The position numbers and the translations under genes were made by a program. Positions 23,373 through 63,472 of a DNA stretch of 64,000 nt are shown here, piece after piece. Location of the stretch: positions 248,001 to 312,000 of the forward strand of contig OX344750.2 in assembly GCA_947034885.2 (NCBI GenBank). The letters are read 5' to 3'. Under the pieces are notes generated by a model. That model was not told the DNA's origin and did no database searches. It worked only from the letters and a program-made list of their open reading frames with translations. This stretch comes from Thuidium tamariscinum. Lineage: Eukaryota; Streptophyta; Bryopsida; Hypnales; Thuidiaceae. Every line of letters starts with the position of its first letter. Positions within the stretch are counted from its first letter, which is position 1.

Positions 23373-24029
23373 TGATGGAACACTAAATCTCAACCTTACT
23401 AGAATTAGTGTGATATTAGACTTGATTGTGCCGCCTTCAACGATGCTAGTGTGTGAGCATGAACATGCGAGCATGTGAGCTTCTAATATGTATATTAGTA
23501 GATATACTACCACCTTTGAAGGTGTTTATAGTAAAAATACCTATAATATAGGTATCTATATTATAAATATACTCTTATTGGGTCAAATCACACTCTAATG
23601 TACCACAAAAGGGGTCAGACACACCAAAATCTGCAATGTAACTTCTTTCAATCTATTGTTTTCTAATGCAAATCTATTAATTATAGATAATTTAGTCCTT
23701 TTTGATTAGAGCTTCAAGTCATGTTAAGACTAATAGTATTTTATTCATAAAAAATAGAAAAATTCTTTACTAAAAATTCAATTGTAGTTGAATTGTCAAT
23801 GCTTCAGCTTTTTCAATGGACAAAAAGGAGTCTAATTTCTAATGAATAATAATGTGATTGAATCCAAAAAAATCACATATGTATATATTCATATGATAGA
23901 GTAGAAAAGGACACTTTTGACACAAACTGATTATATTTTTATTTTCTATAATATTCAGAAGTAAAAATTTTTGAAAGTTTTTTTCAATACATAAAATATG
24001 CCATATTTAACTACTTTCGGACTATGGAA

Positions 24030-24860
24030 AGTCCAGAAGTAATTTATGGAAAAATCTCCGGATGCATATAATTACGGTTGGCAATTTATCCAAAGATTTC
24101 AAACTAGAGAGTTCTAATGTCACTAATGTTCATCTGGAAATCTCCCGATGTACTAATGTAATGTACATGCGAACCCATCCACCTAATTACTAATGTAATG
24201 TTCATCTGGAAATCCCCCGATGTACTAATATAATGTCCATGTGAACCCCCCCTAATTACTAATGTAATGTTCATTTGGAAATCTCCCGATGTACTAGTGT
24301 TATGTAGTGTTCATCTGAAAATCTCCCGATGTACTAATGTTATGATGTAGTGTTCATTTGGAAATCTCCCAATGAACTAATGTAATGTTCATCCCGAAAA
24401 CCCCCTATGTACTAATGTAATGTTCATCTGGAAATCCCCCGATGTATTGATCTTTTGTTTCTGGAAAGCCTCCGATGTACTAATGCAATATTCATCTGGA
24501 CCGCCCCACTCTTAAGATGTACTCATGTAATGTTCATCTGCAAAAACCCCAATGTAGTATGTATTAATTTTATGCTTATCTGGAAATCCCCCGATGTAGT
24601 AAAGTAATGTTCATCTGGAAAATTCCCCTCTGTACTAATGTAATGTTCATTTGGAAATCTCCTGATGTACTACTGTAATGATCATTCAGCTAGAAATCCC
24701 TGATGTTAAGATGTCATTATGAATACGATATTTTCATATCCAGTGATTTCCTATGCAGTTTTACATATTACTCAAACATGAAAATTTAAATGTCAGTAAG
24801 GCTCATCTGGAACTCCCCTGATGAAGTGCTCACATCCAAAAGCAAGCAGTGACATTCAAA
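24030..24860. repeat. Left subterminal array of palindrome-related tandem units
   Basis: About 15 degenerate units of 35-60 bp follow one another, each containing TGTTCATCTGGAAATCTCCC and then GATGTACTAATGTAA. The core is a one-sided decay of the 18-bp palindrome. Subterminal arrays of this kind commonly bind transposase. The right end has a different, longer unit with the same core. Confidence 0.85.
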
Positions 24861-25287
24861 TGGACAACGGGTTCTCATATGATGCCATAGACAGTGCAAC
24901 TTCTATTTATTTTGCGCTCTGTAAGCACTTATTGCTTACATAGGATCATACACAGTTATTAACAATGCCTTATTCCATCTTTGAAGTCTACAAGGGTGTA
25001 CATTACTAGACAGTTTATAGGAAGTAGAAGCTTACAGTAGATTATATTATAATAATACAATCACATAAGTTTCGGCGGTTGCCAGTAAGGGATGGAACAA
25101 ACATCATATACTACTGTTAATTTCATCTACAGTTGTCACAATCAGCAACAACTACCTCTAATTAAAAAGAACAGATAGTCATACGGGACCATGTGCAATG
25201 AAAATGCACAATGGCAATTCAATGTCATATAGACAATGCCATCCGGAGATCTCCCGATGACCAGTATAAGCCTACCATGGTAAGCAT

Positions 25288-28200
25288 TTAGGGGTCCACC
25301 TCATTTGCCCTATTCAGATTTGCCAAGGCAGCCTCCCTACTCTTCTTAGAAATAGTTCGAGATTTGGGGTCTACTACCTTAGACCAATTTGCATATACTA
25401 CGCAATTTACATCAACCCAAGTGGGGGCTGTATTTTCAACAATCCATTTACCACTCCAGCAATTCCGGTACCTCAATTCCAATGTCCTTTCGGAATTATC
25501 CGGTCTCCAGTACTGCAGCAAGAACTTGCCGTTATTCTCATTATTCTCATCTTCGGGCACTCTACATACGTCAGACAACGCTCTTCCTTGCCAAACAGCA
25601 CAGACGGAGGGGTCTTCGGGTCTAAGAAGAACCCATGAGCTTGAACGTATGTCCACCCAAGGGTTGAAACTTTCCTGTGGAGCTTCATTTGTAGGGCCAC
25701 AATAAGGTTCTGGTTGATCTACCTCTGGAATCACATCCATGGGATTCACGGTCGACCTTGCTCGAGATACATCATCTCGCAACACCCTCCAATCATGTTC
25801 TGGCCAAAAGCCTTCAACTAGAGCTGGAAGGCAATCCAGCAGTGGATCGTTCAGCTCACGTACCACACGATTCCAGTAATCCACATATGGACCAAACGTG
25901 GTTGCAAATCCCTCACATTTTGACATTCCATTTTGCCAGTACTGAATGTACTTTTGGAGTCCGACCAGCATAAAACCCTTGTTCAGTGTAGCCTTCCGTA
26001 CAACTTCAAGAGCCTTCTCTCGATTTCCTGTCTCCTTAGGAACTTCGCTGCCCCACATAGGCTTGAATGGCACCGGCTTTGGACAACCCCGAGGGAGCAT
26101 TGGACGACCATGCCGGTCTTTCTTCTACAAGCACTGAGAAGGTTTATCAGACGGTAGCCACTGTGAATCCACTGCTGATTTTTTATACTTCATAACGGGG
26201 ATTCCATCACCATCCACATAGAATTTAAAAAGATGCATCTCTCCCAATCCGATAATTCTAGCTGCACCACTGCACAAGTAACCTCTAATAAAGCATTTAA
26301 AATCTGCCACCTCCTGTATGACCTCGGGCATGAATGATAATTCCTGAGATTCCATGAAGGCTTTCATAAGGTCAGCAACAACAAACGTATTCTTACTCTT
26401 CAAAGCCTTAGACAAATGGCTAAAATATGCATCTATGTCCTCGTGAGTGTGTCCAACTAGAAGGAAACCGGCTTGGATTTCCTTGAATACTCCTCTTGCT
26501 ATAAGCATAGACAAGAACGCCATGAGATATTGGTTCTTGTTATCCTTCGCAGAGTTATCAAGCTGAAGATACAATTTTTCAGGGAGGGGAATAGATCCAC
26601 GCCAAGCTGTTGGATCTATCAATTTTAGGGTGTCCATACACCTAGATTTTCCTCTGAGTAGTGCCTCAAACATTGAATTGGTCAGCGGATAAGGGAAGAG
26701 GTTGCCTGTCTCCCGAATTGGAGGACCCTCCAATCGGCGAAACAATCTGGCCAAGGACGAGATCGTAAAGTTCGAGTCCCCCGGCCAACATGACGGAGCA
26801 TAATGAGCATAAGCGCCATGACCATGAGCTACCATACCGGTCACGCTCAACGGAAGCTGACCTAAACCTTGAGTGGCCTTTGTTGTCACCCGCATCCTCG
26901 GAAGAGCCGTTTTAGATGTATCCATCTTATCATGAATAACGCATAACATCTCCTGAAGGTTCCGTTTCGATTCTTCACGCCAAGACCCATACAAGCGACG
27001 ACAAGACGCTTGATGATTAAGATGCTTAGTACGCTGCTTCGTGAACTCCACAAACTCGGGACTTCCTTTCGATGATTTCAAAAGGAACGCTAGTAATTGA
27101 TCACAAGTAGTACACTTCGCAAATGAACTGCCAACAGGTTTAACCGCGACATTGTTGAAGTGCTTCTTTTTGATTCTACTAATGGTTGACTGGCTCACTT
27201 GAGGAAGACCATAATCCGAATTTAACTGCAATGGAATTTCAGCACACTTCAAAATCAAAAGCAACAACAGAAGATAATGGCTAAAAATGATTGTCCTCCA
27301 AAACAATTTTATCGGGAGTTCTCCCGATGTAATAACATATCCGGAGATCTCCCGATGGCATAATGCAATTCACAGACTCAGCAGACAGATTTCGAGTGAT
27401 TCAACTACCTCATTGGCATCAGCTTGAACTCGTTTCCAATTATTTCCAACAGGCAGAAATTTCAAAGTGTCCATTCTTCCATTTCCAATGCCCCGCATTT
27501 GGTGTGGCATTTGATCAACGGTTTCATCTATGATTGCTTTTATCGTTCTTGTCACTTGGACGGTTTGAATCCTGGGACGCTTAATCCCTTTGTTCCCGTG
27601 CAATCCTGAGACCACACCATCATTGTACTTCTCTATATAACTGTGGTAGGTCGATTTCGGAATTCCGTGAATAATGTACCACGCCGTAGTACATACTTCA
27701 GCTCCCTCCAATGTAACATATTTACGCTTCCGATTCCCGTCCCCACTATGCAGTTGCCCGCCCACGGCGATCCCATATTCCCGACGATCTTCAAATGACT
27801 TTAGGTAAAATGTCTTCCTCACCTTCAACGTACTCTCATGATGAAACATTTGGCAACATCGGTTTGCGCAACATTTTTGTGAACTAACCTTCCGTATTTC
27901 ATCTTCCCCAGTTTTTCGAACATATTGTGAATCCTGCTGGTCAAGCTTGGGTCGACGAACAATATAGCGATAGGGGGACTTCTTGCGACCACCTAGATAA
28001 GCTAAGGGGTCCTAAACTTCGGGATGGGCCCGAAAGTGGTCAACAGTCTCCATCAACGATCGTCCACATGGGAACCAAGAATGCAGTAAGGGCCACCGAG
28101 CATGACTCATTATGGTATCCTTGTCACCAACGAAAACGTCCAGTACAGTAACACCTACAAAGCCCTCATCGACTATTCCATCTTGGAAATGATCATCCGT

Positions 28201-28719
28201 CCTAAAGCAGATTATTCGACCTGACGCCAGTAACATGCCATCCGAATCTCTGTGATGCACCTCAAGACCCATCCAGTCGTCTAGACGAATGTAGTGATCA
28301 TGATCCATCGGGGGATCTCCCGATGACCTCATTACAGCATCAACTCTCCATAACACTGTCCGATCAAGAACATCAGCTAAAGTTCTAAAACCCCTTTGGC
28401 AAGGGGCAACTCGAAGTTCCTGAGCTTCTAGATTGATCGTCCGAGGCCGTAGCAGAACAAATACCCAAGGCTCCATGGGGATTTGAACTCCAAGCCACTC
28501 GCCTTGAGGACGAGCATCCACAATACATCCTTCTCCAACTTCACCATATCCCGGCAAAAGCAACTTCACGACATCACCGTTCTTGACTGGTGAGGATGTA
28601 GCACTGGACTCCTGAGACTCATTCTCCTCAGCGGTTCCACTTGAGTAAGAGAGTAGAGAATCATCCACGGATTCATAGGATAAGTCCATTTCCTGTGAAT
28701 CACTGTCGTCGAAAGCCAT
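25288..28719 (-). CDS. Transposase-like protein of the giant element (DUF7869/KDZ-like), two in-frame TAGs
   Basis: Two coding blocks, 28719-27409 and 27225-25288, join across a 183-bp intron (GAG|GTAGTT to CATTGCAG|TT) that holds two palindromes; together they span 1,082 codons. The N-terminal ~300 residues are unrecognised. A Cys-rich cluster (KCCANRCC) precedes a GIPKSTYHSY segment, then FAKCTTCDQL. The catalytic-looking core has DKMD, LYLQLDN and VGHTHEDID, as in DUF7869 transposase-like proteins related to the KDZ group. In-frame TAGs at 28012-28014 and 26125-26127 split the frame, although coding-like sequence continues after each. Its position suggests it mobilises the giant element. 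One palindrome (28307-28324) is translated within the first block. Confidence 0.75.
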
Positions 28720-28739: not shown

Positions 28740-30161
28740 ACTATTGGATCTAAAAACATCGTCAAGGCACAAAGAAGTCAGACGGTCTGGGATGTATATT
28801 ATTGCCATTGCCCTTCCATACACAATCTTCACATTGTGAAATGTCAAACAATTGCATATAACAGAATTCACTGCACATACAATTGGCCAAATTGAATCCT
28901 ACTTCCTTTCACTTTTGGAGTTCACGAGCTCATTCCTTTCATAGCACAGAATGTTGCATACATTCTTGAGATATCTATAAAATTAGCCTAGAGCTAGTAG
29001 TCTTCGGATATATCGAGTGCCCTTAATCTACGAATGCACGGACGTTCATAGAGTACTCTTCAGAAATCAATTATCCGGAGATCTCCCGATGGAACCACTC
29101 AGTGGTATAACCGTCAAGGAATCGGACAAGCTCTTCATGAAAACATACTAAGAGCATTCAATATGTCGTTAGAACTTCGAATGCATTTAGTGCATTTGGA
29201 TCAGACATAATCATCCGGAGATCTCCCGATGGAGCCATTCGGAGGTGTTACCACCCAACCATTGGAAGATATCCCCATGCGTTCAGTGCGAGAGCATGTG
29301 ATCCAACTATCCGGAGATCTCCCGATAGAACCACTACTGGAGATTGAAACTCACCACTTGGAAAATCTCTAGAAAGAAACATTACGAGAGTTTAAGGCTC
29401 ATCTATCAGGAGATCTCCGGATGGAAATACAGCTAGAATTTAGGGCTGCAGATCTCCGGATTAAAATAGAGCTTGAATTTAGGGCTCATCTGTCGGGAGA
29501 TCTCCGGATGAAAATATAGCTAGAGTTCAGGGCTCATCTATCGGGAGATATCTGGATGAAAATATAGCTAGAGTTCAGGGCTCATCTATCGGGAGATCTC
29601 CGGATAGGAAAAATACGTTCGCACGTGCTACCGTACTATACTGCATCTCCATATAATGTACGCACTCGTATATTATTTTGATCTTCGTATGGGAGTGAGG
29701 TCCTCAATACTTCGTATTATGGATTCTTATACGGTATGTACTAGTAAGCCAAAGGTAGACGACCAACCATCATAAGGACAACCATACTAGATCATCTTCT
29801 ACAGTAACCAAAAAGAGCTTTCAATTCCTAGGTATTGATCTCCAAATACATGTCGGCAATTGACAATGCATTTGAAAGTTATTTGAAGTTGTGTTCTATG
29901 TGCAATATGCCGTGATGAAATCCAGCTAGATGCTCATGGTCTGTAACACTGCTCAATAAGCAGCTACTGGTTATACATTCATCAAGGGATATAAATCCAC
30001 TGTTCAACATAAGCTTGGATACAAGAAACTACTGAAGCATTGCATTGCCATCCTCATATCCTACTAGTTCCTATTGTTTGTTGACATGCAGAAACTCCAA
30101 CTACACTACCGAAGCCTCAAGATTATGAAACCCGAAGCAATGGAAGTTGAAGAAATCATAC
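28740..30161 (-). promoter_or_regulatory. Probable 5' leader intron carrying eight palindromes
   Basis: Upstream of the transposase start, a good donor (ACAAG|GTATGA, minus strand, at 30161) and an acceptor near 28750 would define a ~1.4-kb leader intron. Palindrome copies lie at about 29073, 29213, 29309, 29405, 29447, 29491, 29540 and 29588, the last few in a ~50-bp tandem context. The divergent gene has the mirror arrangement, so these may be transposase-binding or transcriptional control sites. Confidence 0.5.
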
Positions 30162-30585: not shown

Positions 30586-31319
30586 GGGTCGTTGCAAGAA
30601 ACACCGTCCATTTTCCGTAGCGTTTTGGAAATGGACGCTGTTTTCTTTGGGAGTACTATTTAATTAGAAAATCAATTTTTAAAAAATATGAAAAATATGT
30701 CTAATGTATAAAACTTAAAGAAGAAGGTATCCTATGAAGGAAAACCTTAGGAAAATTCTCCAAGTAGGAGAACTAGAAAAGTGGAAAATCTCATGAAAAT
30801 GGGCGTATTTACATTTTAATTTGTAAAAAATAGGAAAAGTTATTTTTCTTGAATCTAAAAATTGTCCATTTGGGAAGAGTTGATGGTGATGATATTCCAC
30901 CAAAAAAATAATCTCAACTCTATTATCAATGGTCAGAAACTGTGTGCAATGGGAGTGTTGTTTGCACACATGTGGAAGACATAAAATAATGTATTTTTAG
31001 ATTCACTTCCATAGGAATATGCTTTCCTACTATGCAAATGCATCATGAAAATTTCAACTTTAGATCATTAAATTTGGGTACTCCCAACGTAGTAAAAACC
31101 CCTAAACCTCAATTTGTGACAAATTAACAATAAATAATTTTAAATATAAAATGATTTTTTTTAATTTCTGAAAAATAAGGGATGTAAAAATCATCAAGTT
31201 AGAGAGTTCCAATAATTATTTAGTATCCTCGAATTTTTTAATTCAAAAGTTATAGCAAAAAAGAACAACGGCACTCCAATTGTGACGGAGAATAGGACCG
31301 GTGTTTCTTGCAACCACCC
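30586..31319. mobile_element. 734-bp MITE, copy 2
   Basis: It has the same length and ends as copy 1 at 2334. It begins GGGTCGTTGCAAGAAACACC and ends GTGTTTCTTGCAACCACCC, and it is flanked by TATT (30582-30585 and 31320-31323). The two copies differ at scattered single bases only, implying fairly recent movement. It contains no giant-element palindromes, consistent with later insertion into that element. Confidence 0.88.
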
Positions 31320-31323
31320 TATT

Positions 31324-33100
31324 GCAAAGTCACAGAGTTAAATTTGCGTGTTTACAATTATTGTAACTGTTGACTTCACTCTCGAGATTAGTGCAACTTG
31401 AAGACCCTGCAGAAGATGCACGTGGCCTTCTCTTTTGAATCTTTGGTAGATTCTTTGAATCTGTAGCATTGAAGTAGGGGACTTGCGGCATTCTGTCTAT
31501 CAAATATACTCGTCACAATGACAATGAATACTTCCGTGTCTTTTATCTTCATTAATATTAACCACTATTTATGTTGTGTTTCATTATCTTATAGGCTCAT
31601 CTATACCAATTATGTGAAAGTCAAATACATTTTGGTTTGAAGCAATTTCCCATTGTACAGAATGACTACATGTTATTCAGTGAATTTCTTTATCAACACT
31701 ACTGAATTCACCATCTACATTTTATTATAGAGAAAACAAATGCAATGGATACATGACATTACAATAAATGATTAAATGGAAATTAATTTAGAATCTTGGA
31801 TCCACCATATAAAGGTGTAGATTCTCTACGAAACGAAGATCTCCCTTGCTCAAACTTCGTTTCAATGAGAGGATGCCTGAGGATGTATGCCCTAGTGTTT
31901 ACAAAAAGAGTTTGAAAATTAGGGTTCCAATCATTGGAAAATTCAACCTAAACAATTACAAGTTACACGGTTACATCTTACAATTTGACCATTGACCACG
32001 CTTTCGTTTGAGGTCCATCATTTGTAGGATCATTCTAGGAGGTTCCACAGTTTTAGGGTTCAGGGTATAGCATCCACGGTCTTAGGGTATGGCATCCACG
32101 GTCTTAGGGGATAGCATCCACGGTCTTAGGGAAGACGCTCTATGGCCTTAGGGTTTAGGGTTCAAGGTTTAGGGTCTACTCTTTCAAATTATTGGTTCTA
32201 CGGGTTGTGATTGACAATGAAATGGTCATTGGTATAACGGTTTAGAGGATTAGGGTCTACATTCTCATGTTCTTGAATGGCGTAAAGGTTGTAGATTGTA
32301 CTATCTAGGGTTTTATATCAAGGATTTATAAATTAGGATTCCTAGTTTTCGATATGAGATTCAGTGAATTCTAAGTGTTTTATTTCGAGGGTCATGAGAC
32401 TATGATATTTCAAATTAGGGTGCCTAAATATTGAATGATTATGTTGAGGGTTTGGGTTACAATATTGATTTTATTCTTGTTGGAGTTCAGGTATATTATT
32501 CAAGATAGTACTAGGGCCTTCTTGGGATTCAAGTTTTTCTTAAATTCATGATTGGATGAGGGTTTTTTGATGAGAACAATAAAATTAGTATCTGAATTCA
32601 TATTTATTAATAAGATTATGAGCTTGCTTTTGTGGGATTATTTTTTAATTAAAGGCCTAACTTCAGATTCTAAACCTGGCTACCATTAGTTTTACTTGCC
32701 AATTATAATGAAAATGTGTATTGTTAATATTCAATAGACTTACTATCCATCCAATTCCTATTTACCGAATAAATAATTTTGATTTCGAAAAAAAATAACT
32801 GATTCTAAAATAGTTAACTTTCTAACTTCGTTGAATTATAGTTACAATCATGTTATTTCCTATAAAATATAAGATTAATATTCATAATTCTTCTCATTCA
32901 TCCTTTATCCGTAGGCCAATATAAATTAATTAAAAGCTTCCTTCAAACAAGTAAATAATTTTGTCCATTATCTTATGTCATTGAAAATAACAAATCTTTA
33001 CTTGTTCATATAATTCTTTACAAATAATGTAATTATAAGATTCTTATTCTATATGCAAACCTCACATGATGAATTTATAAATTGCTATGTTGGAAATGTA
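31324..33100. other. Non-coding spacer with telomere-like and 24-bp repeats
   Basis: At about 32060-32135, three units of GCATCCACGGTCTTAGGG follow one another. They run into short TTTAGGGTTCAAGG-type sequence resembling plant telomeric repeat. No coding signal was found. Confidence 0.55.
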
Positions 33101-34550
33101 TAAGTTGCAATGTTATAGAACAATCATGTTCTATGACAAATTTCAACTTTCAAGTTGGAATTGTCTATTTTTTATTTGTTTTCTCAAAAAACAGCACCCT
33201 GCCATTCTTTGCACCCATTCCCAAATGCCACATATGATTCGAAATCAACATGACTAGGAGACAAAAAGAATATGTGTAAGTTGAAATGTTATAGAACAAT
33301 CATGTTCCATGACAAATTTCAACTTTCAAGTTGAAATTGTCTATTTTTTATTTATTTTCTCAAAAAAAGGCACCCTGCCATTCTTTGCACCCATTCCCAA
33401 ATGCCACATATGATTCGAAATCAACATGACTAGGAGACAAAAAAATATGTGTAAGTTGCAATATTATAGAACAATCATGTTTTATGACAAATTTCAACTT
33501 TCAAGTTGGAATTGTCTATTTTTTATTTGTTTTCTCAAAAAAGAGCACCCTGCCATTCTTTGCACCCATTCCCAAATGCCACATATGATTGGAAATCAAC
33601 ATGACTAAGAGACAAAAAAAATATGTGTAAGTTGCAATGTTATAGAACAATCATGTTTTATGACAAGTTTCAACTTTCAAGTTGAAATTGTCTATTTTTT
33701 ATTTGTTTTCTCAAAAAACAGCACCCTGCCATTCTTTGCACCCATTCCCAAATGCCACATATGATTGGAAATCAACGTGAATAAGAGACAAAAAAAATAT
33801 GTGTAAGTTGCAATGTTATAGAACAATCATGTTCCATGACAAATTTCAACTTTCAAGTTGAAATTGTCTATTTTTTATTTGTTTTCTCAAAAAAGGGCAC
33901 CCTGCCATTCTTTGCACCCATTGCCAAATGCAAGCTATGAATCGGAAATCAACGTGAATAAGGGACAAAAAAAATATGTGTAAGTTGCAATGTTATAGAA
34001 CAATCATGTTCTATGACAAATTTCAACTTTCAAGTTGAAATTGTCTATTTTTTATTTGTTTTCTCAAAAAAGGGCACCCTGCCATTCTTTGCACCCATTG
34101 CCAAATGCAAGCTATGAATCGGAAATCAACGTGAATAAGAGACAAAAAAAATATGTGTAAGTTGCAATATTATAGAACAATCATGTTTTATGACAAATTT
34201 CAACTTTCAAGTTGGAATTGTCTATTTTTTATTTGTTTTCTCAAAAAAGGGCACCCTGCCATTCTTTGCACCCATTCCCAAATGCCACATATGATTGGAA
34301 ATCAACATGACTAGGAGACAAAAAAAATATGTGTAAGTTGCAATGTAATAGAAAAACCATGTTTTATGACAAATTTCAACTTTCAAGTTGGAATTGTCTA
34401 TTTTTTATTTGGATTCTCAAGAAAGGGCACCCTGCCATTCTTTTCACATGCATTGCGAAACGCTACGTAAAATTGAAAATCAACGTGAATAGGGGCCAAG
34501 AAAAATATGTGGAGGTTGCAATGTCATAGAACAATCATGTTCTATGACAA
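33101..34550. repeat. Satellite array, eight ~176-bp monomers plus a partial
   Basis: Units begin TAAGTTGCAATGTTATAGAA at about 33101, 33277, 33452, 33628, 33804, 33981, 34158 and 34333, with a degenerate ninth at 34512. Spacing is 175-177 bp. Each carries a short inverted repeat (CAACTTTCAAGTTG) and the phrase CACCCTGCCATTCTTTGCAC. The period is near nucleosome length. Open frames inside are incidental. Confidence 0.92.
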
Positions 34551-37323: not shown

Positions 37324-37376
37324 ATGGAAGTGGAGTCTACACAGCCGGCGGAAGAGCTTCTGATGTGGGACAATCC
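37324..37376 (+). CDS. Long giant-element gene, exon 1
   Basis: The reading starts MEVESTQPAEELLMWDNP and ends at a strong donor (AATCC|GTAAGTACC). It joins in phase to the acceptor CTTAATTGCAG at 38780, giving continuous sequence into the next exon. This start was chosen because the exon supplies an ATG, an ideal donor and the right phase. Confidence 0.65.
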
Positions 37377-38780
37377 GTAAGTACCCACTCACTGAGAAGT
37401 TAGTGTTGCACAGATCCATTTGCATCTCACTGAATGTTGAAATTCATTGGCAATTCAGGTATATGTAATGACAGTGAGACTAACTTAGTTACATCATTCA
37501 CAGTTTCCCATCTTTTAAAGAAGTTTAGGTTAGACAGTGTATTAAGATGTATGATTGTAGAAGGGGCAGCAGGTCTAGATGTGCGCGTAGCAAGATCATT
37601 CAGTGTTTAGGCGTTACATAGTACTAAAAAGCCATAGTAGTACACATCCAGGAATTTCCGTATGGTTACTGTAGCCTAAACTGAGAACCGTAATTCCTGT
37701 AACTGAAGTATTGAAGACTTTTCAATGAATCCTGTATTACCACGTATCCGGAGAAATCAGTATGGTGTCCTATAACTGCGCATCTGGGGAAATCCAGAGG
37801 ATACCCTATAACCGCGCATCGGGAGTTTTTGACAAAAGAACCCTATAACCGCGGAAACGTAGAGCGCAATGTGTCACCAATTATAACTAATTCCTGATCG
37901 CTAGAAGAAATCCCTATTACCACGGAACGGGAGCACCCCCGATGATCCTTAGTCATGAAAATCAAGGCCGCAAAATCATCTGGAGATCTCCCAATAAGTA
38001 CGAGAAAAGAACTTCGATAACGAAACCAATGACGAATGTAAACGGAAAAAAAAAGCCATCCGGAGATCTCCCGATAGTAAAAAACTAAATGACTGTAGTA
38101 TTAGTTCCCTAATGCCATAAAGCCTAAAGGAAGCCTAAATTCATAGTATGGCTCTTGATCTATCCGGAGATCTCCCGATGCTGCCTAATCCAAAATTCTT
38201 ATATCAACGGGAGGTCTCCCGATAAATATGAGTTTTATCCCGAGTTGTAAAGACAAATGAAGATGTAGAAAATAGGAATCGTTTAGGGAGAGAGCCCGCG
38301 GTGGAAAGACTTGAAGATACAATGAGTGTTGATGGATAATAAGATATCCGTGGACAGAAGTACATGGATAGTTCAATGTCAAAGCTATCAGGAGATCTCT
38401 CGATAGTTGCTTTAAGGATTAGAAGGGTCCTGGAGTGCCCATAACTAGAATATCAGTTTCTTGGAGTAAGGTAGGGCATCCATCGGGAGATCTCCTGATA
38501 GTTGCTTTAGGCATTACAATGGTCTGCAACTGCTATAACTACAAAGTGGGTCTGGAAATATGGCCTTGAGGCCATCGGGAGATCTCCCGATGGCTGGTAG
38601 TAGTACAACTGCAAACCATTTTGAATCTCGTCACACTTGTCGATGTATGTGAGAAGACCACTCATATTGAATGCCGCTCAGTATTCCAATGGCTTAAAGT
38701 AGTGACATCGGGAGATCTCCTGATGACTGAGGTTCGTAGGTACTTCAACATCTAACAACTTTTGTTCTGCTTAATTGCAG
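37377..38780 (+). promoter_or_regulatory. First intron of the long gene, carrying eight palindromes
   Basis: Copies lie at about 37978, 38058, 38162, 38205, 38387, 38482, 38574 (perfect 18-mer) and 38707, often in the context GATAGTTGCTTTA. The mirrored arrangement upstream of the transposase gene suggests a common regulatory or structural role. Confidence 0.6.
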
Positions 38781-47530: not shown

Positions 47531-47599
47531 CCTTGTGTCTTGAACAAACACAGAAGAATCTCAAACATGCGCGTGGAAGTGAAAATGAGAGCACAGGTC

Positions 47600-48590: not shown

Positions 48591-48592
48591 CA

Positions 48593-49080: not shown

Positions 49081-49788
49081 CACAAGCAATTGATAAGAAT
49101 GTGTTTGGAGCTAAGGTTCCTCCTTCTTATGGTGTAAGTAGAAGGTTAGGGTTAGCCGCTTTTTCCTCATATGGAGTAATGACGCGCGTGGGAATACAGT
49201 GTTACATGGGTTGAATGATGTACTATGAGCGGCGCCGGCAAAAACTTATTGGAGGATCTGGACTTGACAGTTTTGTCATTGTCAGTTTCTTCACCCTGAA
49301 GCCTTAATTTCCGCAATTCAAAAAAGTGAGTTTGCCGTCTACTGAAATGACCGCTAACATGTCAGATTCTGCAGTAATAATGGGCTATGACAGCCGCCTC
49401 CACACAGAGAATTAAATTTCAATAGAGAAGGACTTGTAGACCTTACATTGGTGGCTCTGTTTTAATTTCTTAAGATTATATAATATTGAAGGATTCTGTG
49501 GAATAGAGGTGTTTGCTTTTTCAAACGTGTATGTCAGAAGTACTTTTAAATTAATTATATTACAGAAGTAATTATTTCAATGTTTTAGGCCCTATAAGAA
49601 GGTTGCTAATAAATGAAGAATGTAAAGCACAGTGGCGGCTAAAATTGGATGAAATAGAAATAGATAAGATTTTATATCTCTAGACATGACAAAGTTCAAA
49701 TGTAGTCATGTTTGTGTTCATTTCAACCTCATGTGGTAAAAAGGATTCATAGTCTTCTCTTTCTCACAACCCTCTTTTGGATTTCAGG

Positions 49789-52700: not shown

Positions 52701-53843
52701 AAAATTGCAGATGCGTTGAATGCTTTGCCGGGATCAGAAGGTGTGGGAACAAGAATACCGCACTTAGAAGGAGAAGAAATATTTGGGAGCATGAAGAGGA
52801 AGTTAGATGTCCCCATTGGTGATGCAGGTGATTCACATAGACCGGACAAAATGAATTTCTCTCAACCTCGTGTTAGAACAAGGTCTACGACAACTTCTTC
52901 ACCTTCTTTACAGGATAGGACTAAAGAATCTGAGGCGAATACTTCAACATATGTTCCAATTGCATTTGAGAATGATTGCGACACATCCAAATGGCATATT
53001 GCAAGAATCAGCCACAAATCAAATGCAAGATGTCAAGCTCAACAAAAGACCTCAAACATCAAGTGCACAGCTAAAATTTCAAGGGGAAAGAAGGGAACTC
53101 CAGCGCCAACCTACCGCGGAAGAAAAGAAGAATATGGTAGTAAACGAGAAGTGGTAGTTGACTTTTGGTTTTGCTGGGATGACATTGAACGTTGTGTGAA
53201 GGGTTCTAAACGGAAGTGGGTTATTGATTGGCCCAAGATACCAGAGGTTTGGCCTATTCTCACTGGAACAAACCTCAATCGTGAAGAGACATTGTTGTTG
53301 CAGCATGCTGGATTTCACCTACAAGCACGGCCAGTATTGTCACCACGTCGATTGTTCACCATGTCAAAGATTTTCACCACTGCTTTGTATGACCAACCTT
53401 CACCGAAGAACCTTGACGCATATCCAACAGTGAGGAATAACCGTACCATTCGAAGGGTTGCAAATGCACCAACCACCGAACAACGGAATAAGTGGGAAAG
53501 TGCGGGCAATGTCAGAGGCCAAATTCTAGAGGTGACTTTGCTCCCTTTTCCAGGACTTGGTGCAATTGTAGTACTCGAGACAGGGTCAGATTCTAACAGG
53601 AATGCATATCGAGTTACAATAGGAATGTTTCCAACGTGTACATGTCCAGACTTTGTGAATATGGCTGTTTCAGCTATTGGTGGTCGACAACAGTACGTGA
53701 ACTGCAAGCACTTGTACTATTTATACAGGTACTTTTGCAAGATGGATGTCCACGAAGACAAATTCATTCATGCACCAAGTTGTAGCTTCAATGAATTGAA
53801 GGTACTTCTAGTTCGAGCAGGAATTATTGCAATTCCAGAATAG
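49789..53843 (+). CDS. Mutator-like transposase with SWIM zinc finger
   Basis: Two exons, 49789-51975 and 52455-53843 (donor TTAT|GTAATT, acceptor TTCCTAG), give about 1,191 residues. The ATG follows a strong acceptor (TTGGATTTCAG), so a leader exon lies upstream. A Cys/His-rich segment (HPWCKVM, then CAGHLSCENANCDYL) around residue 290 may bind zinc. The core has WLMFDHVKRVKEWTTMACHV, AICDMQSED and FMADSAMANWNAI (candidate catalytic Asps). The C-terminus has the SWIM pattern CTCPDF, then NCKHLYYLYRYF. No internal stops are present, so it may be functional and drive movement of its host element. The donor at 51975 is the best of several, chosen for phase. Confidence 0.75.
52118..52192. repeat. 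GGATCC-centred hairpin 5 (decayed)
   Basis: Outer GGGGGTCC and GGACCCCCC and the central CGGATCCGACGG are kept, but the stem between them no longer pairs well. It lies in the intron of the Mutator-like transposase gene. Confidence 0.6.
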
Positions 53844-53849
53844 GTATGG

Positions 53850-54701
53850 CTAGATATATTTATGTTTTCAATTTCATTTATAAATATATATTATAATTGT
53901 TGTTTGAAGTTAATTTCCTCATATTACAAAAGTATTAGAAAGTGTTGATGCAACTATGCTTGTACGTGAGTGTAGAGTGTTCATGAACCCTGAAAATGAG
54001 GAAGAGTGACAAGACTCAAATTCTAGGGTTCATATTCATATGTCCCATAACAATTGCCATTCTACAACGCGCTACTATAAGAGGTGTCTTGTTCGATGGT
54101 CATATATGCCAGAGGACCGTTTGGGGGAATAGCCTTTCTCCGTCATCATGTGGAGAATTATATTCCCCTCGGTTCTTTGACATTTTGTTGAAAATACTAA
54201 CTAAAGCATGTGTAGATAAAGCACGTATACAATAGTACAGGTATGGTATCTAAATTTGAAAAATGATGACGTAGGGGCAATCATGAGACTAAGAAGGACA
54301 CAAAATTAGCTTTATATTTTGGCATAAAATATCACTAGGATATAGCTTCAATACAAGTGTTTGACAATTTTTAGAGTGTCGAGAAACTAAATCCTAAAAT
54401 ACGTATGATAAACTTTGAAGGCCTCTGTCTTCATCAAATTAAACTTTAAACAAAAAAAACTAAAATTTCACAGAAATGATTGTCATAGGTGACACGGTCA
54501 TAGGTCACGGTCATTGGTGACGCAGTCATAGGTCTTAAATTGAAACAAATGGAAAAAAATTTTGAATTTTGAAAAAAAAAATGAAAAAAAGTAATTTTAT
54601 CCAAAAAATTTGAAAATATCTGGTTTGGAGGCTTCCCGCTCACAGGCTCCACGCTCACGGCTCACAGGCTCGCCGCTCCACGCTCGCACGCTAGCGTCGT
54701 T
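53850..54701. repeat. Right subterminal region of the Mutator-like element
   Basis: GTCATAGGTGACACG recurs three times near 54480-54535. The end is made of CTCACAGGCTC and CCACGCTC repeats, mirroring the GTGAGCCT runs at the left end. No gene was found. Confidence 0.65.
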
Positions 54702-55924
54702 GCATCCGATGCTATCAAGTCTGTTTTCTTTGCCTCCCATCTTTTGGTCCATGCATCTTTCACCTTAGAAATAATGAATGTGTCCGCTGGTTGGCAAAGT
54801 TGGGTCGAACAAAGTGGCAAGTATTTCAAGATGACATTTTTGGCTTGTAAAACAGTGGTAAGTCTTGGGGTCATGTTATGACCGGTACAATTATCTACCC
54901 AAATAAATTTTGAGTAGCCATGAACATCAGATTGGAAGGCTCGTGGTTCTACAAAATAATCTGAAAATAGAGTTTGACTCATCCACCCTTTAGGACCTGT
55001 ACGATAACATACCCCTGGGATGTTGTCATCCAATCCTCGAATTGGATAACTGCTGCTGGGATTTGTAAAGATCAACATAGGAGATTCGATCATAGATCGA
55101 CGCCCCCCTGAGATTCTAATGACCATTGTCATTGAATCTCCACCCGATACTACCTCGGCATATTTGACAGTTGTGTCACCACGGAAGCCTAATGTTCTAC
55201 CGTTGTCCATGTTTAGAACAAAATGGGTTTCGTCTATATTCTCCATTAGATTTTCATCAAAGGTGCCATCCTGAAATCCTTGATTTAAGACTCCTAGATG
55301 GTATGCAACTTGCATCTCAATTTCTTGTTCTTTTTCAGGACTGCAAGTGAGACGACCTCTTTGAGATAAGAGGACAATGTTTTGGACATGCATGAATTGC
55401 TGAATCCAACAGTGGGTCAGTTTTTCAAGCAATAAAACATTGTCCTTAGGATCTACGGATTGGGCTGTATAAGGGGATGCAGGGTCCATTAGGATCGTTT
55501 TTGCTAACTCAATTAGCAAACGGGGAGAGAATTTCACACCAGTTTTTTTGTAATGCTCAAATGCATCAAGTAAGAGCGGATAGAGCCACTGTACCCATTC
55601 GGAGCGTTTTTGACCACGACCGGGGGCTGCCTTGGTACGAAGTTGTTTTTGTCCTCCAGATCGGCTGCGGGTGCACGAAAGTGGTGGAAGCTCTTGGGGC
55701 TCTTCTCCTTCGTTGCAATATCGATCACGAAGCGCCCACCAACGCGATGCACGCATCAAATTGGAGCTCCGTTGACCTCGAAAATGCTCGAGGAAAGCAT
55801 GGATGGTGCGGTTGTAGAGACCGGGGAGACCATCCATTGATTCACTTTGCACCATCCATGTGATGATCCGCTTGCGCGTGGCAATGGTGGAAACTTGCTG
55901 GAGACGGCGGGGGATTTCTGCCAT
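54702..55924 (-). CDS. Pogo-like DDE transposase, N-terminal and catalytic part
   Basis: It starts MAEIPRRLQQVSTIATRKR, with an N-terminal helix-turn-helix-like region. The DDE_1-type core has NIDETHFVLNMDNGRT (first Asp), FIWVDNCTGHN (second Asp) and CSTQLCQPADTFIISKVKD (third acidic position). The frame has no stops up to the Mutator-like insertion and would continue at 39915 in phase, giving 494 residues in the unsplit state. Because only the insertion disrupts it, the gene was probably functional until recently. Confidence 0.85.
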
Positions 55925-56189
55925 GAGCCTGAACCACAACATGCAAAAAATAAAAAAATGTTGACCAAAAAAAAAAACAATTTTTGATATAATGTAGAGG
56001 ACAACGAGATGATTGCAATGGTGTTGCTAATACCTGAAATGGACTTGTTGGTGAAAAGATATGAGGGCTTGAACTTCGAATTGTGAAGGAGAAGATGCGC
56101 GGAGGCGGCAAATTCAAAATGCGCCGGTGGGCGGGAACGGCGGACTATAAACACACACACCCCGAAAAAAGCCCGATAGTGCAAGAAAC

Positions 56190-56370
56190 TTAGGCTGCAA
56201 TCTGAACTCCAGCTCCAAACCAAACTTGGGCTGCAAACTGTACTCCGGATGCAAACTAACTTCCGGCTGCAAGCTGAATTGCGGCTGCAAACTGATTTCC
56301 GGCTGTAAGCTGAACTGCGGTTGCAAGCTGATTTCCGACTGAAAACTGAACTCCGCCTGCAAACAAGCTG
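56190..56370. repeat. ~24-bp minisatellite upstream of the pogo-like transposase
   Basis: Units of the type GGCTGCAAACTGATTTCC and GGTTGCAAGCTGAACTCC alternate about seven times. The minus-strand open frame with Gln/Pro/Ser repeats over it is a repeat translation. Confidence 0.8.
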
Positions 56371-56595
56371 AACTAAATTGAATTCGGAGAGTCGCAGCAA
56401 AGGCAAGAATCGAAGCAATTCTAGAGAAGGAAAAGGCTGCACATTCAAGTCCAAAACCCAAGCAATTCCAGGGAAGGACAAGGCAGCGCATTGAAGTCTA
56501 ACACTAATTGTGGACAACTTCAGATTTAGTATGGTAACTAGTAGGGGGGTAAAAACACTAAATGTCACCAAACACTAAATATCATCTTTAGTGTA

Positions 56596-57366
56596 GTCGG
56601 AGCACCAAGGGATGATGCCACAGATGATAGTAATGCAAAGGCCAAGATCCTGAAGACTATCACAATTGAAAGATGCGTGGCCTTCACAGATGTAGAAGTA
56701 AAGAAGCTGAGCAAAGGGCAGATGTCGGCAATGCAACAGCTTTACAAGAGGGTCTTTGGGGTGATGTATAAGTGGGGGAAGAGACCTCTAGTGGACGCAG
56801 GCGGTAAAGCAATTCATGTGCACTACAAGCACTTGCATAAGGCTCCACCAGGGAAGATTGTGTATAGAGGTATTGAGAGGGCTAGGTTGGAGGGGATCCT
56901 AAACCAAGTCCGAATCGAGGCAGACTACGACTCTGAATTGAGACACATCACAGTCCTTCCCCTAAAACTTGGTCCGTATGGTGGTGATGGTTCCAATGCA
57001 AGGGCTGCTTTCTAGGATTCCGCTCCGAATAAGAGAGATCTAACTAGTACAACGAATTACTACATCATTGGTGGACAACACACAGTCAAAGCGCATAAGA
57101 GACTCTTGGAGGTAGGCGAGATCCCGGAGTGTGATAGAGCGCAGGCATCAACCTTTGAAATCATTCCTATTTGGGCACCAGTGAGTACTACGACGCATAG
57201 TAGTGACGACCTTGTCTACCTCTCTCGATCACTGAACCAGAACATTGCTGGTCAACAACGCGAGCAATGTTTCACCCAGCAACTCCTGAATGCGCGAGTG
57301 AAATGGAGGGATATGAATAGCCCACAACCAGCGTATGGTGGGAGAATTCACTCGCCTGAGTATGCG
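56596..57366 (+). CDS. Long giant-element gene, exon 2, part after the pogo-like insertion (ParB-like)
   Basis: It continues in frame from 39336. A block containing RGIERARLEGILNQVRIEAD, ITVLPLKLGP and YYIIGGQHTVKAHKRLLE followed by FEIIPIWAP matches the order of a ParB/Srx-like nucleotide-binding domain. An in-frame TAG at 57013-57015 (after ARAAF) splits it, although coding-like sequence continues immediately (DSAPNKRDLTSTTNYY). It ends at an excellent donor (TATGCG|GTAAGG). Whether it binds DNA is inference; the GGQH motif is the main support. Confidence 0.6.
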
Positions 57367-57581
57367 GTAAGGAGTACACCACTCTTCTCTTGGAATTGAT
57401 TCTCACTTTTTCATTAGTTTTGGAGGGGGGCTTGGCATCGGGATATCTCTCGATAGTTGCTTCTCGTAGGATAGAGTTTTGGAAGGGGGCTTGGTATCAG
57501 GAGATCTCCCGATAGTTGCTTCTCGTAGGATAGAGTTTTGTCCTTGGAATTTCAACTAATTGTGATGTCGCCTTGGCGTAG
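57367..57581 (+). other. Intron of the long gene with two palindromes
   Basis: GTAAGG to CTTGGCGTAG. A ~60-bp unit (GATAGTTGCTTCTCGTAGGA, then TAGAGTTTTGG) is duplicated, each copy with one palindrome (57437 and 57496). Phase is kept across the intron. Confidence 0.7.
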
Positions 57582-58921
57582 AGGTTCTATCCTGTAATGA
57601 GTGCAATCTTCACAAGAGTTAAGCACAATGACACGGCAGATTTGAGAATTCCGCTTCTCTTCCTTGAAGACGATGATGATGTCAGACGATGGATAAAGAT
57701 CGAGGAGAACTACATGAATCAGTGCCTTCCGGACAGTGCCGGAGATTATGGAGGTCCAAAAAACCACTGTTTCAAAATGACTTCAGGCCTCTCTACGGCC
57801 TTCACCCAGAGGATGTGAACTACCTGGCGACCTTGGTGGAGAACAAGGAGGTGTCGATGAAGAGCTCTAAGGCAAAGGCGTTGGAGAACCACCAGAAGCT
57901 CCCTACCCTCGTTCAAGCAGCAGCTCTAGAGAAGCAAGTTCGACTTATGAAGAACGAGCTCATGTGCCAGTATAAATCGCACCCGCTTCCGAGCAAGAGG
58001 CCTGAGTACATCCCATACACTACCGATCAGTGGGATGCATTTGCGGCGGAGAAGAAAATCAGCCGTCGTGATCTGGAGCTTTGGGTTCACAAGTCGAATG
58101 ACTTTGAGGAAGGACAGGAGTGGTTTAAGGGGCGAGGACAAGCTCTGAACAAGACATGGGACCCCGAGGACTGTCCCCGTTTTTTGAGAAACCTGTGGGA
58201 AGCACACATGAGTACCGATGAAGGGGTGCAAGTCAACTAGGTCTTGGCATCAAGTTTTGATGATTCATACATGTGCATGTCCATGGACGAGACGAACTGG
58301 AACATTAGTGGCGTCCTCACTAACCCAGTTGTGAAGAATTGGCGTGGAGAGAAGAAAAAACACCTATACATCTGGTTTCTTTTCGAAGCTACGGCGACTG
58401 GATCAAGGGCGAAGAAGTTGGAGGATCATAAACTCAGAAGACTTTTTGAAGCATTGGAGTTCTGTGATTCAAATCAGCAAACATTGTTGGCACGGTCTCT
58501 AGCTGTTTTTTTCATAGATGCCGATGGCTTCCACGAGGTACTCGTTCATTTGGACGCCCGTAGGCGAGAGAAGAAGAAGGTTTGGGATTATCATGTAATC
58601 CACTACTTCAACAAACGAGTTGATGGCTTCCCGAGGCCCGCTACTAGGACAAGATTCAATGTCTTCGTAGTGTACTTATTTGGGTACAATGAGGGCCAAA
58701 GTCGAAGGGATTGCTTTTCTTGCTTCTTCCTTGGAATCAAGCCTCCCATGAAGCCATTTTACGTCTCGGACGACATGGAGGACGTGTACACGTATTGGAA
58801 GCGCCCTTGTCTACCATGGTTGAAGATCACGACTCCTCTTGCACTTCTCCGACATCATATACACGACAATATGGTGATTGTAAATGTCAATGGTGGGCCG
58901 GAGATTACATTCCTCGGATTG
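57582..58921 (+). CDS. Long giant-element gene, exon 3, with frameshift and TAG
   Basis: It reads RFYPVMSAIFTRVKHNDTAD and on to DYGGPKN. The coding then continues in the -1 frame (PLFQNDFRPLYGLHPEDVNY). The switch coincides with A6C at 57758-57764, in the phase of a -1 slippery site. A TAG at 58238-58240 is followed in frame by VLASSFDDSYMCMSMDETNW and 220 further codons to the donor at GGATTG|GTAAGA. No domain was recognised; the sequence is rich in aromatic and charged residues and looks globular. Either the gene is decaying or it uses recoding. Confidence 0.55.
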
Positions 58922-59046
58922 GTAAGATTTTAATTTTGAACCCCCTACTCATCTATCGGGAGATCTCCGAATGCTTGTATCCTCAAAGGGTAGGTACTCA
59001 GAAGCACTCTAACTTGTAATTCTTGATGTCAATTCAAATCGCCCGA
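58922..59046 (+). other. Probable intron with one palindrome
   Basis: It starts at GTAAGA. The best in-phase acceptor I see is CGAGCGAAG at about 59046. The palindrome is at 58955-58972. Confidence 0.45.
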
Positions 59047-60434
59047 GCGAAGGTCTTGGAGGTAGTTCAATCAGAGGATACTGATGGAACACGAGTTGTG
59101 GGGAAGCAAATTTGGGATGAAGTCCAGAAGTCGCTTGCCGAAGATGCAGGGCCTGATTCTCATGAGCGTGAACCTTCTATCAATCGGCTTTCAGTGGACG
59201 ATGCAGATTCGCATGAGACTACAGAACCTTCCAATGTGGAGTACTCTAAACACAGCGAGGGGACTCAAAGACCAATAGAGATATTGAAGGTCTGTCTTCC
59301 TTTCCCTTACGCATCTATCGGGAGATCTCCGGATGTTAACTTTTTGTTACTCATGTTTTCTTATGTGGTTGACTGTCTCTATCCTTGTTCAAACCGCAAG
59401 AGAAGTCTCCAGAACCACCGCGTCGTCCAAAGAAGTTGAAGAATCCAAAGCGACCTAATCCTGTGAGCGCCCCTCCAAAAGCGAAGCGAATCACGAAGAA
59501 GAAAAGTGTGAATTCGTTGATGGCGAATGCCTCAACGTCTGGAGGGGATGGTTCTCCATCAAATAGTTTGGATGAACAGACTACGCCCGTCGTAGCGGAG
59601 AACACTGGAGTTGCGGACGCTGCGACGATTTTGGTTTCTTGTTCCAAAGGAGGAGCTCTTGTAGGGGTCCGTGCAGACGAAGCTTCAGAAGATAACCAGT
59701 CAGAGAAGGGAGTTCCATGTACTTAAGCCACCGAACGGATTGAACCGCAATCTCTGGATGTAGGGGCGGGCGATGTACCTATGGACTGCAGTGGCGCTGC
59801 ATCGGAAGATCTCTTGATGAACGATGTAGAAGTCATCGTCACTGTCGCTGCATCGGGAGATCTCCCGATGAATGATGTATAGATCGGCCTTACAAGCTCT
59901 GCAGCGGGAGATCTCCTGATGGCCCAGGACACGGAACTCATCTCCGTTCCTACTATGGCTGATGAGGTTCGGAATGATGCAATGCTTGATCTCGACCCCC
60001 TGAGTCCGGAAGTATTGGAGGCCGTGACTATTGTGGAGGAAGAGGATGTCTCAATCGCTACCCTAGGAGTCCCAGTGGTGCTTTCAGAGAATTTGCCCCC
60101 GACGGTTGGGAGGGGGGTAACCGCGGTAGTCATGGGAAGTGAGGAGGTGTGTAAATTAAGGGAGACGTTTCGCAAGCTATGTCTTCTTAAAAGTATGAGT
60201 TTAGGTCCTGGCACCAGCGATAAAAAATCTCGATACATTGAGGCTTGTCGACTAGCAGTTCGTTTTACTTACCAAAGCCTTTTTGACATTGTCCTTGCAC
60301 AGGATGATGTACCTGCCCATGAGGCTGAAGGTTCGAATGTTGCACGTTTGCCTCAGGTAGGCGGCGTTGTCCAAGGAGCGGTGGCCCAAGAGGTTACCGA
60401 TACAGGTGCTTCAGTTGACATCAATGTTTTTTAG
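59047..60434 (+). CDS. Low-complexity linker region of the long gene, with palindrome-encoded peptide repeats
   Basis: A first block (VLEVVQSEDTDGTR through PIEILK) joins KSPEPPRRPKKLKNPKRP across an intron at 59290-59405 that holds a palindrome. After a TAA (59724-59726), the frame runs through three palindromes read as protein: AASEDLLMNDV, AASGDLPMNDV and AAGDLLM. A TAG (59879-59881) separates the second and third. The last part (ELISVPTMADEVRNDAML, then VCKLRETFRKLCLL) is acidic, with a helical end. It is probably a disordered linker between the ParB-like and phosphatase-like parts, though a separate gene is possible. Confidence 0.45.
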
Positions 60435-60506: not shown

Positions 60507-61162
60507 ATGTGAGAGGGGATGGGTCGACAGAGGGTACAACATCTAAAGAGGTACCCCCACAACGGTATATAGTGATCCTAGACATGAACGGAGTTCTTGT
60601 ACATAGGGCTTTTTACAAGAAAAAACACGTCGTAAAAAGAAGACCCGGTGTCACAGTCTTCCTTGAATGGTTGTATTCCAAGGCAGATGTAGCCTTCTGG
60701 AGCAGTGTTTCGAATCGTACTATGAAGGGTTTGTTAAGAACCGTGCTAGCGGATACTTCTTTTGGGGAGGATAAAGTCCATGCCCTCACACAGGTTGATT
60801 GCTCGGAATCCTCGTATAGGAGCAAAGAGAAACCTGATAAACCGACCTTTTTGAAGGAACTGAACACCTATACGCTTGCTGTAGGTTTGTTGTCTGCGGA
60901 GAACGTACTTCTTATCGATGACTCTCCCTCAAAAAACCTTCTTAATGATTCTAACAACGCCATCTTCCCACAGACTTGGAAAGGTGACTCAGACGACAAT
61001 TTCTTGACTGGGCATCTACTTCCTTGGCTTGATCGTTTATTCAAATCAAACGAAGCTGTGGTACATTTTGTGAAGAACAATCCCTTGGATGGCTGTCAGA
61101 GTCCTTTAGATGCGTTGTCCAAGGAGGGACATGAGATTCTGAAGGCAGTGGTTGGACTCTAG
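60507..61162 (+). CDS. FCP1/NIF-like HAD phosphatase domain
   Basis: It follows an ideal acceptor (TTTTCTTGCAG). The order of motifs fits the NLI-interacting-factor/FCP1 branch of the HAD superfamily: YIVILDMNGVLVHR (nucleophile Asp; the second Asp of DxD is Asn), DVAFWSSVSNRTMKGLL, and LLIDDSPSKNLLNDSNNAIF followed by HLLPWLDRLF. Family members dephosphorylate proteins such as the RNA polymerase II tail. The Asn in motif I may reduce activity. The frame is uninterrupted for 217 codons, in contrast to the upstream exons. It may be the C-terminus of the long gene or a captured host gene. Confidence 0.7.
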
Positions 61163-61842: not shown

Positions 61843-62391
61843 ATGACTGGAGGTCCTCCTTTGCATGTAGAATTGACTACTATAGTGAATGGGTCTTGGC
61901 AGAAGGCGTTGCTCGTTGTTTTGACTGGTGCGTTGTGCGTTGAAGGCGGTGTCGCGGATCTCCCTCACGATATCAACATACTGGATGGTTTTAACGAGTT
62001 TTTTCAATACTTTGTTGACAATTCTCACTGTGGCCTGTGGTCATGCATGCGTGCTTCGACTTTGTCGGAGCTTGTTCGATGTCTTTTACGACAAAATATT
62101 ATAGACCGGTTCCTTTTCATATCCAGTGCCGAAACTCCTGACAAGAACGATCCCTATCCAAATCATGTAGCAATGTTGGAGCATGTTCTAGGTAGTCCTC
62201 GATTGCGTAGGGTTCTTTGGAATCAAACTATTGCATTGCTTGAGGTAGATCCTCTGAACTGGCAACGTCCACGCGTTATAGGACCGTGGATACGTGTGGG
62301 AGATGATGTAGATCATATCAAATTGCAACGTCCCTACTACATAGGACCAGAGTTGAATATAAGGGGAGAAAGATACCATGAAGTGCACTAG
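61843..62391 (+). CDS. Unknown 182-residue protein at the right end of the giant element
   Basis: The ATG is formed by the last bases of a palindrome (ATCGGGAGTTCTCCCGATG, 61827-61845). The protein starts MTGGPPLHVELTTIVNGSWQ and includes LDGFNEFFQYFVDNSHCGLW and LRQNIIDRFLFISSA. It ends ERYHEVH at TAG 62389-62391. It looks globular with no recognised domain or membrane segment. The open frame extends upstream through the palindrome to 61750, so it could instead be the last exon of a longer gene. Confidence 0.45.
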   Translation: MTGGPPLHVELTTIVNGSWQKALLVVLTGALCVEGGVADLPHDINILDGFNEFFQYFVDNSHCGLWSCMRASTLSELVRCLLRQNIIDRFLFISSAETPDKNDPYPNHVAMLEHVLGSPRLRRVLWNQTIALLEVDPLNWQRPRVIGPWIRVGDDVDHIKLQRPYYIGPELNIRGERYHEVH

Positions 62392-62539
62392 TGTGGTTAT
62401 AATGAAGGTACATGTTTGTAATTTTTGGTATGAAAATTAGTAAAATATGGTGACCCTTTCTTCTCCACCCGACTGTAACTAATTCCTATGTACCAAATGT
62501 TTGTCATTCACTTGTCATTCACTACATTCTCTTGTAATG

Positions 62540-63420
62540 TTATGAGAATTGCATCCGGAGATCTCTCGACCAATCCAGTGAAGCCTGAAGTAAAGCTTTC
62601 TTATTTATGTTAAAGTAATCCCTAGTTCATTGCCTCGGGGCAACTCAAAAAAGTCCAAATGTCTGTTCTTCCCTTTCATCAGAAAATCTCCTGATGATTC
62701 ATATTCCTTTCTGTATACAAGTAAATGTAGTCTTCTTGTAGGCTATCCAATTGGGACAAGAGAATTGTTTAGACTTATATCAATTGGATTTGGGTTCAGT
62801 CCTGGCTTTCTTGCAACATGGGGAACCTCCATTATGTGTTGTTCCCTTACATCGGGAAATCTCCCGATGATTTTCTCAAGTATTATATGACTGTACCTTG
62901 ATGAAGCTCAATGTACTTCAATTAAGTTGATTAAGCTCAATGTACTTCAATTAAGTTAAGTTAAGTTCAGTTAAGTTCAATGTACTTCTCCAATTCCCTA
63001 AATTCCAAGAACCTCTATTATGTGCTATTTCCATGTTCATCTGGAAATCTTCGGATGATTCATCTCAAGTACTATATATAAATTAATGAAGTTTGATGTA
63101 CTTCTCCAAGTCCTTAAACTCCAAGAACCTCCATTATGTGCTATTCCCTTGGATCGGAAAATCTCCAGATGATTCATCTCAAGTACTATGTATAAATTAA
63201 TGAAGTTCAATGTAGTTTTCCAATTCCCTAAACCCTAAGAACCTCCATACTGTGCTATACCCTTACATCGAGAAATCTCCCAATGATTCATCTCAAGTAC
63301 TCTATATAATTTGATGAAGTTGGGTGTACTCCAACTCCCCAAGTCCCCAAAACCCTACTTATATTGCAAAATATAGAATCTAAAACCCTATTTAATATGA
63401 AAAATCTCTCGATAGTACCA
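62540..63420. repeat. Right subterminal array (~115-bp units with palindrome core)
   Basis: Palindrome-derived cores at about 62553, 62678, 62851, 63039, 63153, 63267 and 63405 are embedded in repeats of TCAAGTACTATATATAAATT and CTCCAATTCCCTAAA then CAAGAACCTCCATTATGTGC. The unit differs from the left array, but the core is shared. Confidence 0.82.
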
Positions 63421-63472
63421 TGACAAAGTCCAGATTTAACACCAAAGTCCGAAAGTAGTTAAATATGGCATA

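Follow-up and report, generated by a model that had tools for sequence, protein, structure and literature searches.

In the 64,000-nucleotide stretch of the Thuidium tamariscinum genome analyzed in the present study (contig OX344750.2, positions 248,001 to 312,000; hereafter, the window), 27 identical bases at 23997-24023 recur in inverted orientation at 63446-63472. They mark the ends of a giant DNA transposon with terminal inverted repeats (TIRs), which occupies 23998-63471 (39,474 bp) in the duplication frame deduced from other copies and has the terminal bases ATGCC...GGCAT. The inverted termini, the subterminal arrays, and a palindrome confined between them were all present as reported in a preliminary description of the locus, which had also proposed that two divergent transcription units fill the interval. 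The two units were recognized as a minus-strand DUF7869 gene (gene 1) and a plus-strand ParB-like/NIF gene (gene 2); they do not fill the interval, which also holds insertions and a third small gene (gene 3) at the right end (Table 1).

A search of the genome (363 Mb, 19 contigs) with the terminal 25-mer yielded 56 forward and 67 reverse matches with up to three mismatches, compared with none for the control. Among the matches listed, there were at least 13 opposite-facing end pairs 12-87 kb apart, the window counted, one further pair with unlike end variants 42 kb apart on C1, and at least ten short end pairs, which are miniature inverted-repeat transposable elements (MITEs). Six long copies taken whole, the ends of three more, and ten MITEs were used for comparisons. 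The whole copies measured 24,112, 21,291, 24,799, 20,519, 19,165, and 21,993 bp; five shared mostly about 94-98% identity with the core of the window copy, while copy G represents a diverged subfamily with about 68-86% identity to that core in long matches. Both ends, the genes, the subterminal arrays, and the palindrome were common to the other copies, which bears out the proposal of a giant TIR transposon with further copies that share the same two ends, and rules out two unrelated ends for the family. The element size of approximately 39.5 kb proposed at that time was not upheld. The window copy owes this length to the insertion of a 0.7-kb MITE and a 17.3-kb nest; both are missing from the other whole copies, which rules out a single 39.5-kb element, and copy C runs through both insertion points without a break. 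The core (23998-30586, 31319-39336, and 56594-63471) amounts to about 21.3 kb, and the whole copies to 19.2-24.8 kb.

The alignment of copy boundaries, as had been recommended, defined an identical 4-bp target duplication adjoining ATGCC/GGCAT in 19 of 22 end pairs; shuffled end pairing (20,000 draws) gave a mean of 1.3 duplications and a maximum of 7. These pairs comprised the window, the six whole copies, the ten MITEs, the three copies represented by their ends, and an 86-kb pair; the last was a second copy on C9, which resembles a segmental duplicate of copy B and counts as a non-independent case. The full duplication was lacking in copy D (three of four bases match), the MITE L054, and the window copy (AAAT/AGTT); therefore, the two ends of the window copy may have been joined by rearrangement, or one flank may have mutated. 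The 86-kb pair (C7:21595515-21681833), with family ends and the matching duplication TCAT, is apparently one copy enlarged by insertions. With precise ends, 4-bp duplications, many copies, and MITEs with the same ends, the family is a giant TIR DNA transposon, probably of the cut-and-paste type, with a core of approximately 21.3 kb.

Regarding the palindrome, ATCSGGAGATCTCCSGAT (consensus (C/T)ATCSGGAGATCTCCSGAT(G/A)), the window holds 40 sites with up to three mismatches, none of them outside 24132-63284, compared with 0.01 on average and at most one in the shuffled window. The other whole copies contained 40, 44, 36, 41, 34, and 46 sites at this threshold, and 20 Markov sequences contained none. 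Exact sites numbered 216 in the whole genome, against a rough random expectation of 0.02 and none for the reversed control, and all 50 of the exact sites listed (of 216) fell in a copy or no more than 17 kb from a match to the terminal repeat. In the window, 34 of the 40 sites lie outside the exon intervals as read, two more within the gene 1 intron as read, and four are coding, three of them within the gene 2 linker. Array copy number varies between copies. One explanation, that the palindrome is functionless and multiplied within the element through tandem duplication and gene conversion, draws on the finding that several clusters are tandem repeats, in which sites were therefore copied along with their neighbors. 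However, outside the arrays, the flanks differ while the 18 bp of the palindrome persist, and a comparison of the subfamilies shows the sites lasting longer than the sequence around them: across seven blocks in which copies C and G were aligned, identity was 268/324 (83%) for site bases, 399/612 (65%) for flank bases, and 2061/3017 (68%) for others (Fisher p 6e-9, with bases being non-independent). Not every block followed this pattern; that upstream of gene 1 had no clear site excess (56% vs 49-59%), and where the block contains the gene 1 intron, the sites (89%) fell below the remaining sequence (92%). Moreover, nine of the ten MITEs retain one site with up to three mismatches and the tenth one with four, approximately 25 bp inside one terminal repeat. 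We consider the absence of any function improbable.

Table 1. Features of the transposon and its insertions in the window (".", no strand assigned).
Feature	Position	Strand	Remark
Left TIR, ATGCCATATTTAACTACTTTCGGACT	23998..24023	+	end shared by other copies
Left subterminal array, ~35-bp units	24124..24700	+	palindrome variant in each unit
Gene 1, DUF7869 transposase	25288..28719	-	one intron near 27100-27370, read from splice signals
Palindrome cluster upstream of gene 1	29073..29605	+	partly 48-bp tandem array
Inserted MITE, ~0.73 kb	about 30587..31318	.	foreign to element; 97% identical to 2334-3067
176-bp tandem array	33096..34550	+	part of element; present in each of the six further whole copies, diverged one included
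Gene 2, exon 1 and first part of exon 2	37325..39336	+	ATG near 37325, by reading
Palindrome cluster, 8 sites	37978..38724	+	between first two exons of gene 2
Nested insertion, 17.3 kb	39337..56593	.	foreign to element; pogo-like element holding MULE-like one
Pogo-like parts	39337-39926 and 54713-56593		DDE_1 protein, TA duplication
MULE-like element, 14.8 kb	39927-54701		within pogo-like insert; 11-bp direct repeat GCATCCGATGC on both sides
Gene 2, rest of exon 2	56594..57378	+	ParB/Noc-like motif YIIGGQHTV
Gene 2, exon 3	57580..58931	+	middle domain
Gene 2, variable linker	59402..60405	+	three palindromes read as coding 51-bp repeats
Gene 2, last exon	60508..61162	+	NIF-type phosphatase domain, PF03031, E 2.5e-15
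Gene 3, ~180-aa protein	61843..62391	+	right end of element
Right subterminal arrays, 29-bp and 114-bp units	62898..63321	+	palindrome variants in 114-bp units
Right TIR	63446..63471	-	matches left end inverted

The product of gene 1 matched DUF7869 in Pfam (E 7e-45), whereas a comparison with solved structures by sequence gave no match. Among the homologues listed (120 of 162), the sole organisms named were the mosses Physcomitrium patens and Ceratodon purpureus. D150, D273, and D313 were invariant across 14 homologues, which is consistent with a DDD-type transposase in which these residues may be catalytic. In the manner of the transposase-binding repeats of CACTA elements, the palindrome may be the binding site of this transposase, subterminal and internal, for synapsis or autoregulation, with the ParB-like gene serving another purpose. 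Both subterminal arrays are full of palindrome variants, and MITEs, which need the transposase alone, keep their site close to one terminal repeat, as expected from such a role; however, most sites are distant from the ends, in introns or in the regions preceding both genes, where cutting and joining would not require them, and we consider this explanation unlikely.

The three invariant aspartates together with the 4-bp duplication point to Sola rather than KDZ. This placement follows described traits (the 4-bp duplication, a probable DDD type, and size); Pfam names the transposase DUF7869. Sola elements are described as having 4-bp duplications, a DDD-type transposase, and TIRs of 11-1124 bp, and some exceed 15 kb; the present family agrees in duplication length, TIR length, and size, and its transposase is consistent with the DDD type. 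Most Sola elements are 2-9 kb, smaller than the core of approximately 21.3 kb, and the superfamily is known in the moss Physcomitrella patens (PMC10741241). KDZ elements share giant size and accessory genes (PMC12730594, PMC12477816); however, Zisupton has 8-bp duplications (PMC12730594) and Pfam, searched at E up to 1, gave no match to a KDZ profile. KDZ membership was rejected on these grounds, so that in the earlier designation "DUF7869/KDZ-like", the first part is supported and the second is not. Maverick, Starship, and CACTA were also rejected because their gene content or duplication does not fit.

Gene 2 is split by the nested insertion in the window copy. The exon boundaries of genes 1 and 2 were read from splice signals, and by this reading, the ParB-like and phosphatase parts belong to a single gene, in agreement with the preliminary description. 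Its second exon gave a ParB/Noc-like fold match, and a ParB/Noc-like domain is probable, although ParB was not matched when solved structures were compared by sequence. For the ParB exon, a search of 5.8 billion proteins yielded 12 relatives (E <= 0.001), and for the middle exon, two were obtained. Viral relatives of the ParB-like gene were not supported: 31 pattern matches in viral contigs included no confirmed relative, and one phage record was found at E 4. In the genome, 35 remote matches to the ParB motif region, with 32-36% identity confined to this domain, may represent another abundant ParB-like gene family; they are mostly frames of about 130-250 aa, such as L078:192-794. The first motif of the NIF-type domain reads DMNGV, and active NIF-type members have aspartate at the position of its asparagine.

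Coding capacity is impaired in individual copies. By reading, neither the window nor any whole copy has a gene 1 free of stops, frame changes, and deletions, and both gene 1 and gene 2 have in-frame stops in the window copy; the ParB exon is stop-free in four of the genome places covering it whole. Between copies C and G, the ratio of nonsynonymous to synonymous substitution rates (dN/dS) was 0.24 and 0.14 for two parts of gene 1, 0.17 for the ParB exon, 0.11 for the middle exon, 0.43 and 0.31 for the NIF-type domain, 0.32 for gene 3, and 0.76 for the gene 2 linker. The genes of the element are under purifying selection between the two diverged subfamilies. When copy C was compared with its close relatives D and W, the values were 0.22-2.32, as expected if most recent copies are decaying.

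The closest apparent relative in print is from the brown alga Ectocarpus. Sola1-1_Ec32 is a 21.5-kb element with a ParB-plus-methyltransferase gene on the strand opposite to the transposase, similar in size and in the orientation of the ParB-like accessory gene to the present family, and its authors suggested that such proteins bind and modify their own element; as in the window copy, other elements are nested inside the Ectocarpus giant families (PMC12477816). A palindrome is not mentioned in the part of that source available to us. The accessory gene of the alga has a methyltransferase domain, which was not detected here, whereas a NIF-type phosphatase domain ends gene 2. Because a Sola1 with an opposite-strand ParB gene has been published, this kind of element is already known, and the preliminary classification as an undescribed type was too strong. 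If the element encoded a system for methylating adenine or cytosine, like Sola1-1_Ec32, with an active methyltransferase in the middle domain and the GATC-containing palindrome as its target or recruiting site, this would fit that published gene (PMC12477816), the strongest constraint falling on the middle exon, and AGATCT within every exact site. However, no methyltransferase profile matched the middle domain in Pfam or NCBIfam, the usual catalytic motif was not recognizable, and the structure model was unusable (pLDDT, a per-residue model confidence score, of 35.7). The assignment of this domain as a methyltransferase was rejected for want of a profile and a usable model, and the methylation system is improbable.

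The pogo-like insert, bounded by CACTAAAG/CTTTAGTG, is a member of a family whose ends have 168 forward and 184 reverse matches genome-wide, with several end pairs about 0.5 or 2.4-2.6 kb apart; it measures 17.3 kb here because the MULE-like element, the family evidence for which is a weak SWIM match, sits within it. A minus-strand frame at 44460-45194 in the MULE-like element has a ParB-like motif (CDGNHR), and long palindromes centered on GGATCC were noted at 43049, 46368, 46712, and 47123; ParB and methyltransferase resemblances were seen by eye, and profiles matched DUF1015 alone (E 0.02). An inverted 124-bp similarity (77%) links the left flank of the transposon (23314-23437) to the right end of the pogo-like insert (56480-56598). 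Outside the transposon, a minus-strand frame at 8661-9245 encodes a Harbinger-type transposase (Plant_tran, PF04827, E 5e-51).

The closest functional parallel is VANC of Arabidopsis. VANDAL elements have element-specific motifs (YAGTATTAC) in upstream regions and introns, with tandem repeats gained and lost, and VANC proteins have a variable region with peptide repeats, all as in the present family; unlike here, the motif is non-palindromic and the proteins contain DUF1985 and DUF287 (PMC5735166), neither of which Pfam matched in the main open frames here. In bacteria, Noc uses palindromic sites dispersed over a DNA molecule. The present system resembles bacterial ParB/parS and Noc/NBS in the ParB/Noc-like fold match and in the dispersed palindromes, which are candidate sites here, and differs from them in residing on a eukaryotic transposon with no ParA and no recognized DNA-binding domain among the proteins as analyzed.

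Taken together, we propose, at slightly below even confidence, a Sola-like transposon in which gene 2 encodes a palindrome-recognizing, anti-silencing-like accessory protein. Gene 1 would cut and join the ATGCC/GGCAT ends, while the ParB/Noc-like domain would recognize the private palindrome, directly or through a partner, a pairing for which we judge the chances to be evenly balanced. The protein may then load at the 34-46 sites of each copy and cover or mark the element, so that it stays expressed and mobile despite host silencing, in a manner akin to VANC acting through motif arrays in VANDAL; this anti-silencing role is suggested tentatively. The middle domain is perhaps a decayed methyltransferase of the algal type, and RNA polymerase II or chromatin may be the target of the NIF-type domain. 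More speculatively, a phosphatase-fused ParB/Noc-like protein that loads on dozens of private palindromes, thereby marking both the element and its MITEs and protecting them against silencing, may constitute ParB-parS-like self-recognition on a eukaryotic transposon, with other ParB-like genes (the 35 remote matches and the motif-level candidate in the MULE-like element) as parallel systems with other sites.

In titles and abstract openings, with few subscription journals covered, we found no description that combines private palindromes with a ParB-like gene on a transposon. The apparently new part of the present results is on the cis side: a palindrome that is private, conserved, and persistent in MITEs. 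ParB-like genes on algal transposons were suggested to bind their own element, and the binding site is not named in the available part of that report (PMC12477816); a candidate is offered here, which is private to one family in 363 Mb, conserved above its surroundings, and retained in MITEs, so that the suggestion may now be tested by binding. The present results also extend ParB-carrying giant elements to a moss, and the proposed mechanism, if true, could add a further element-encoded escape from silencing to those of VANC proteins and TET/JBP enzymes.
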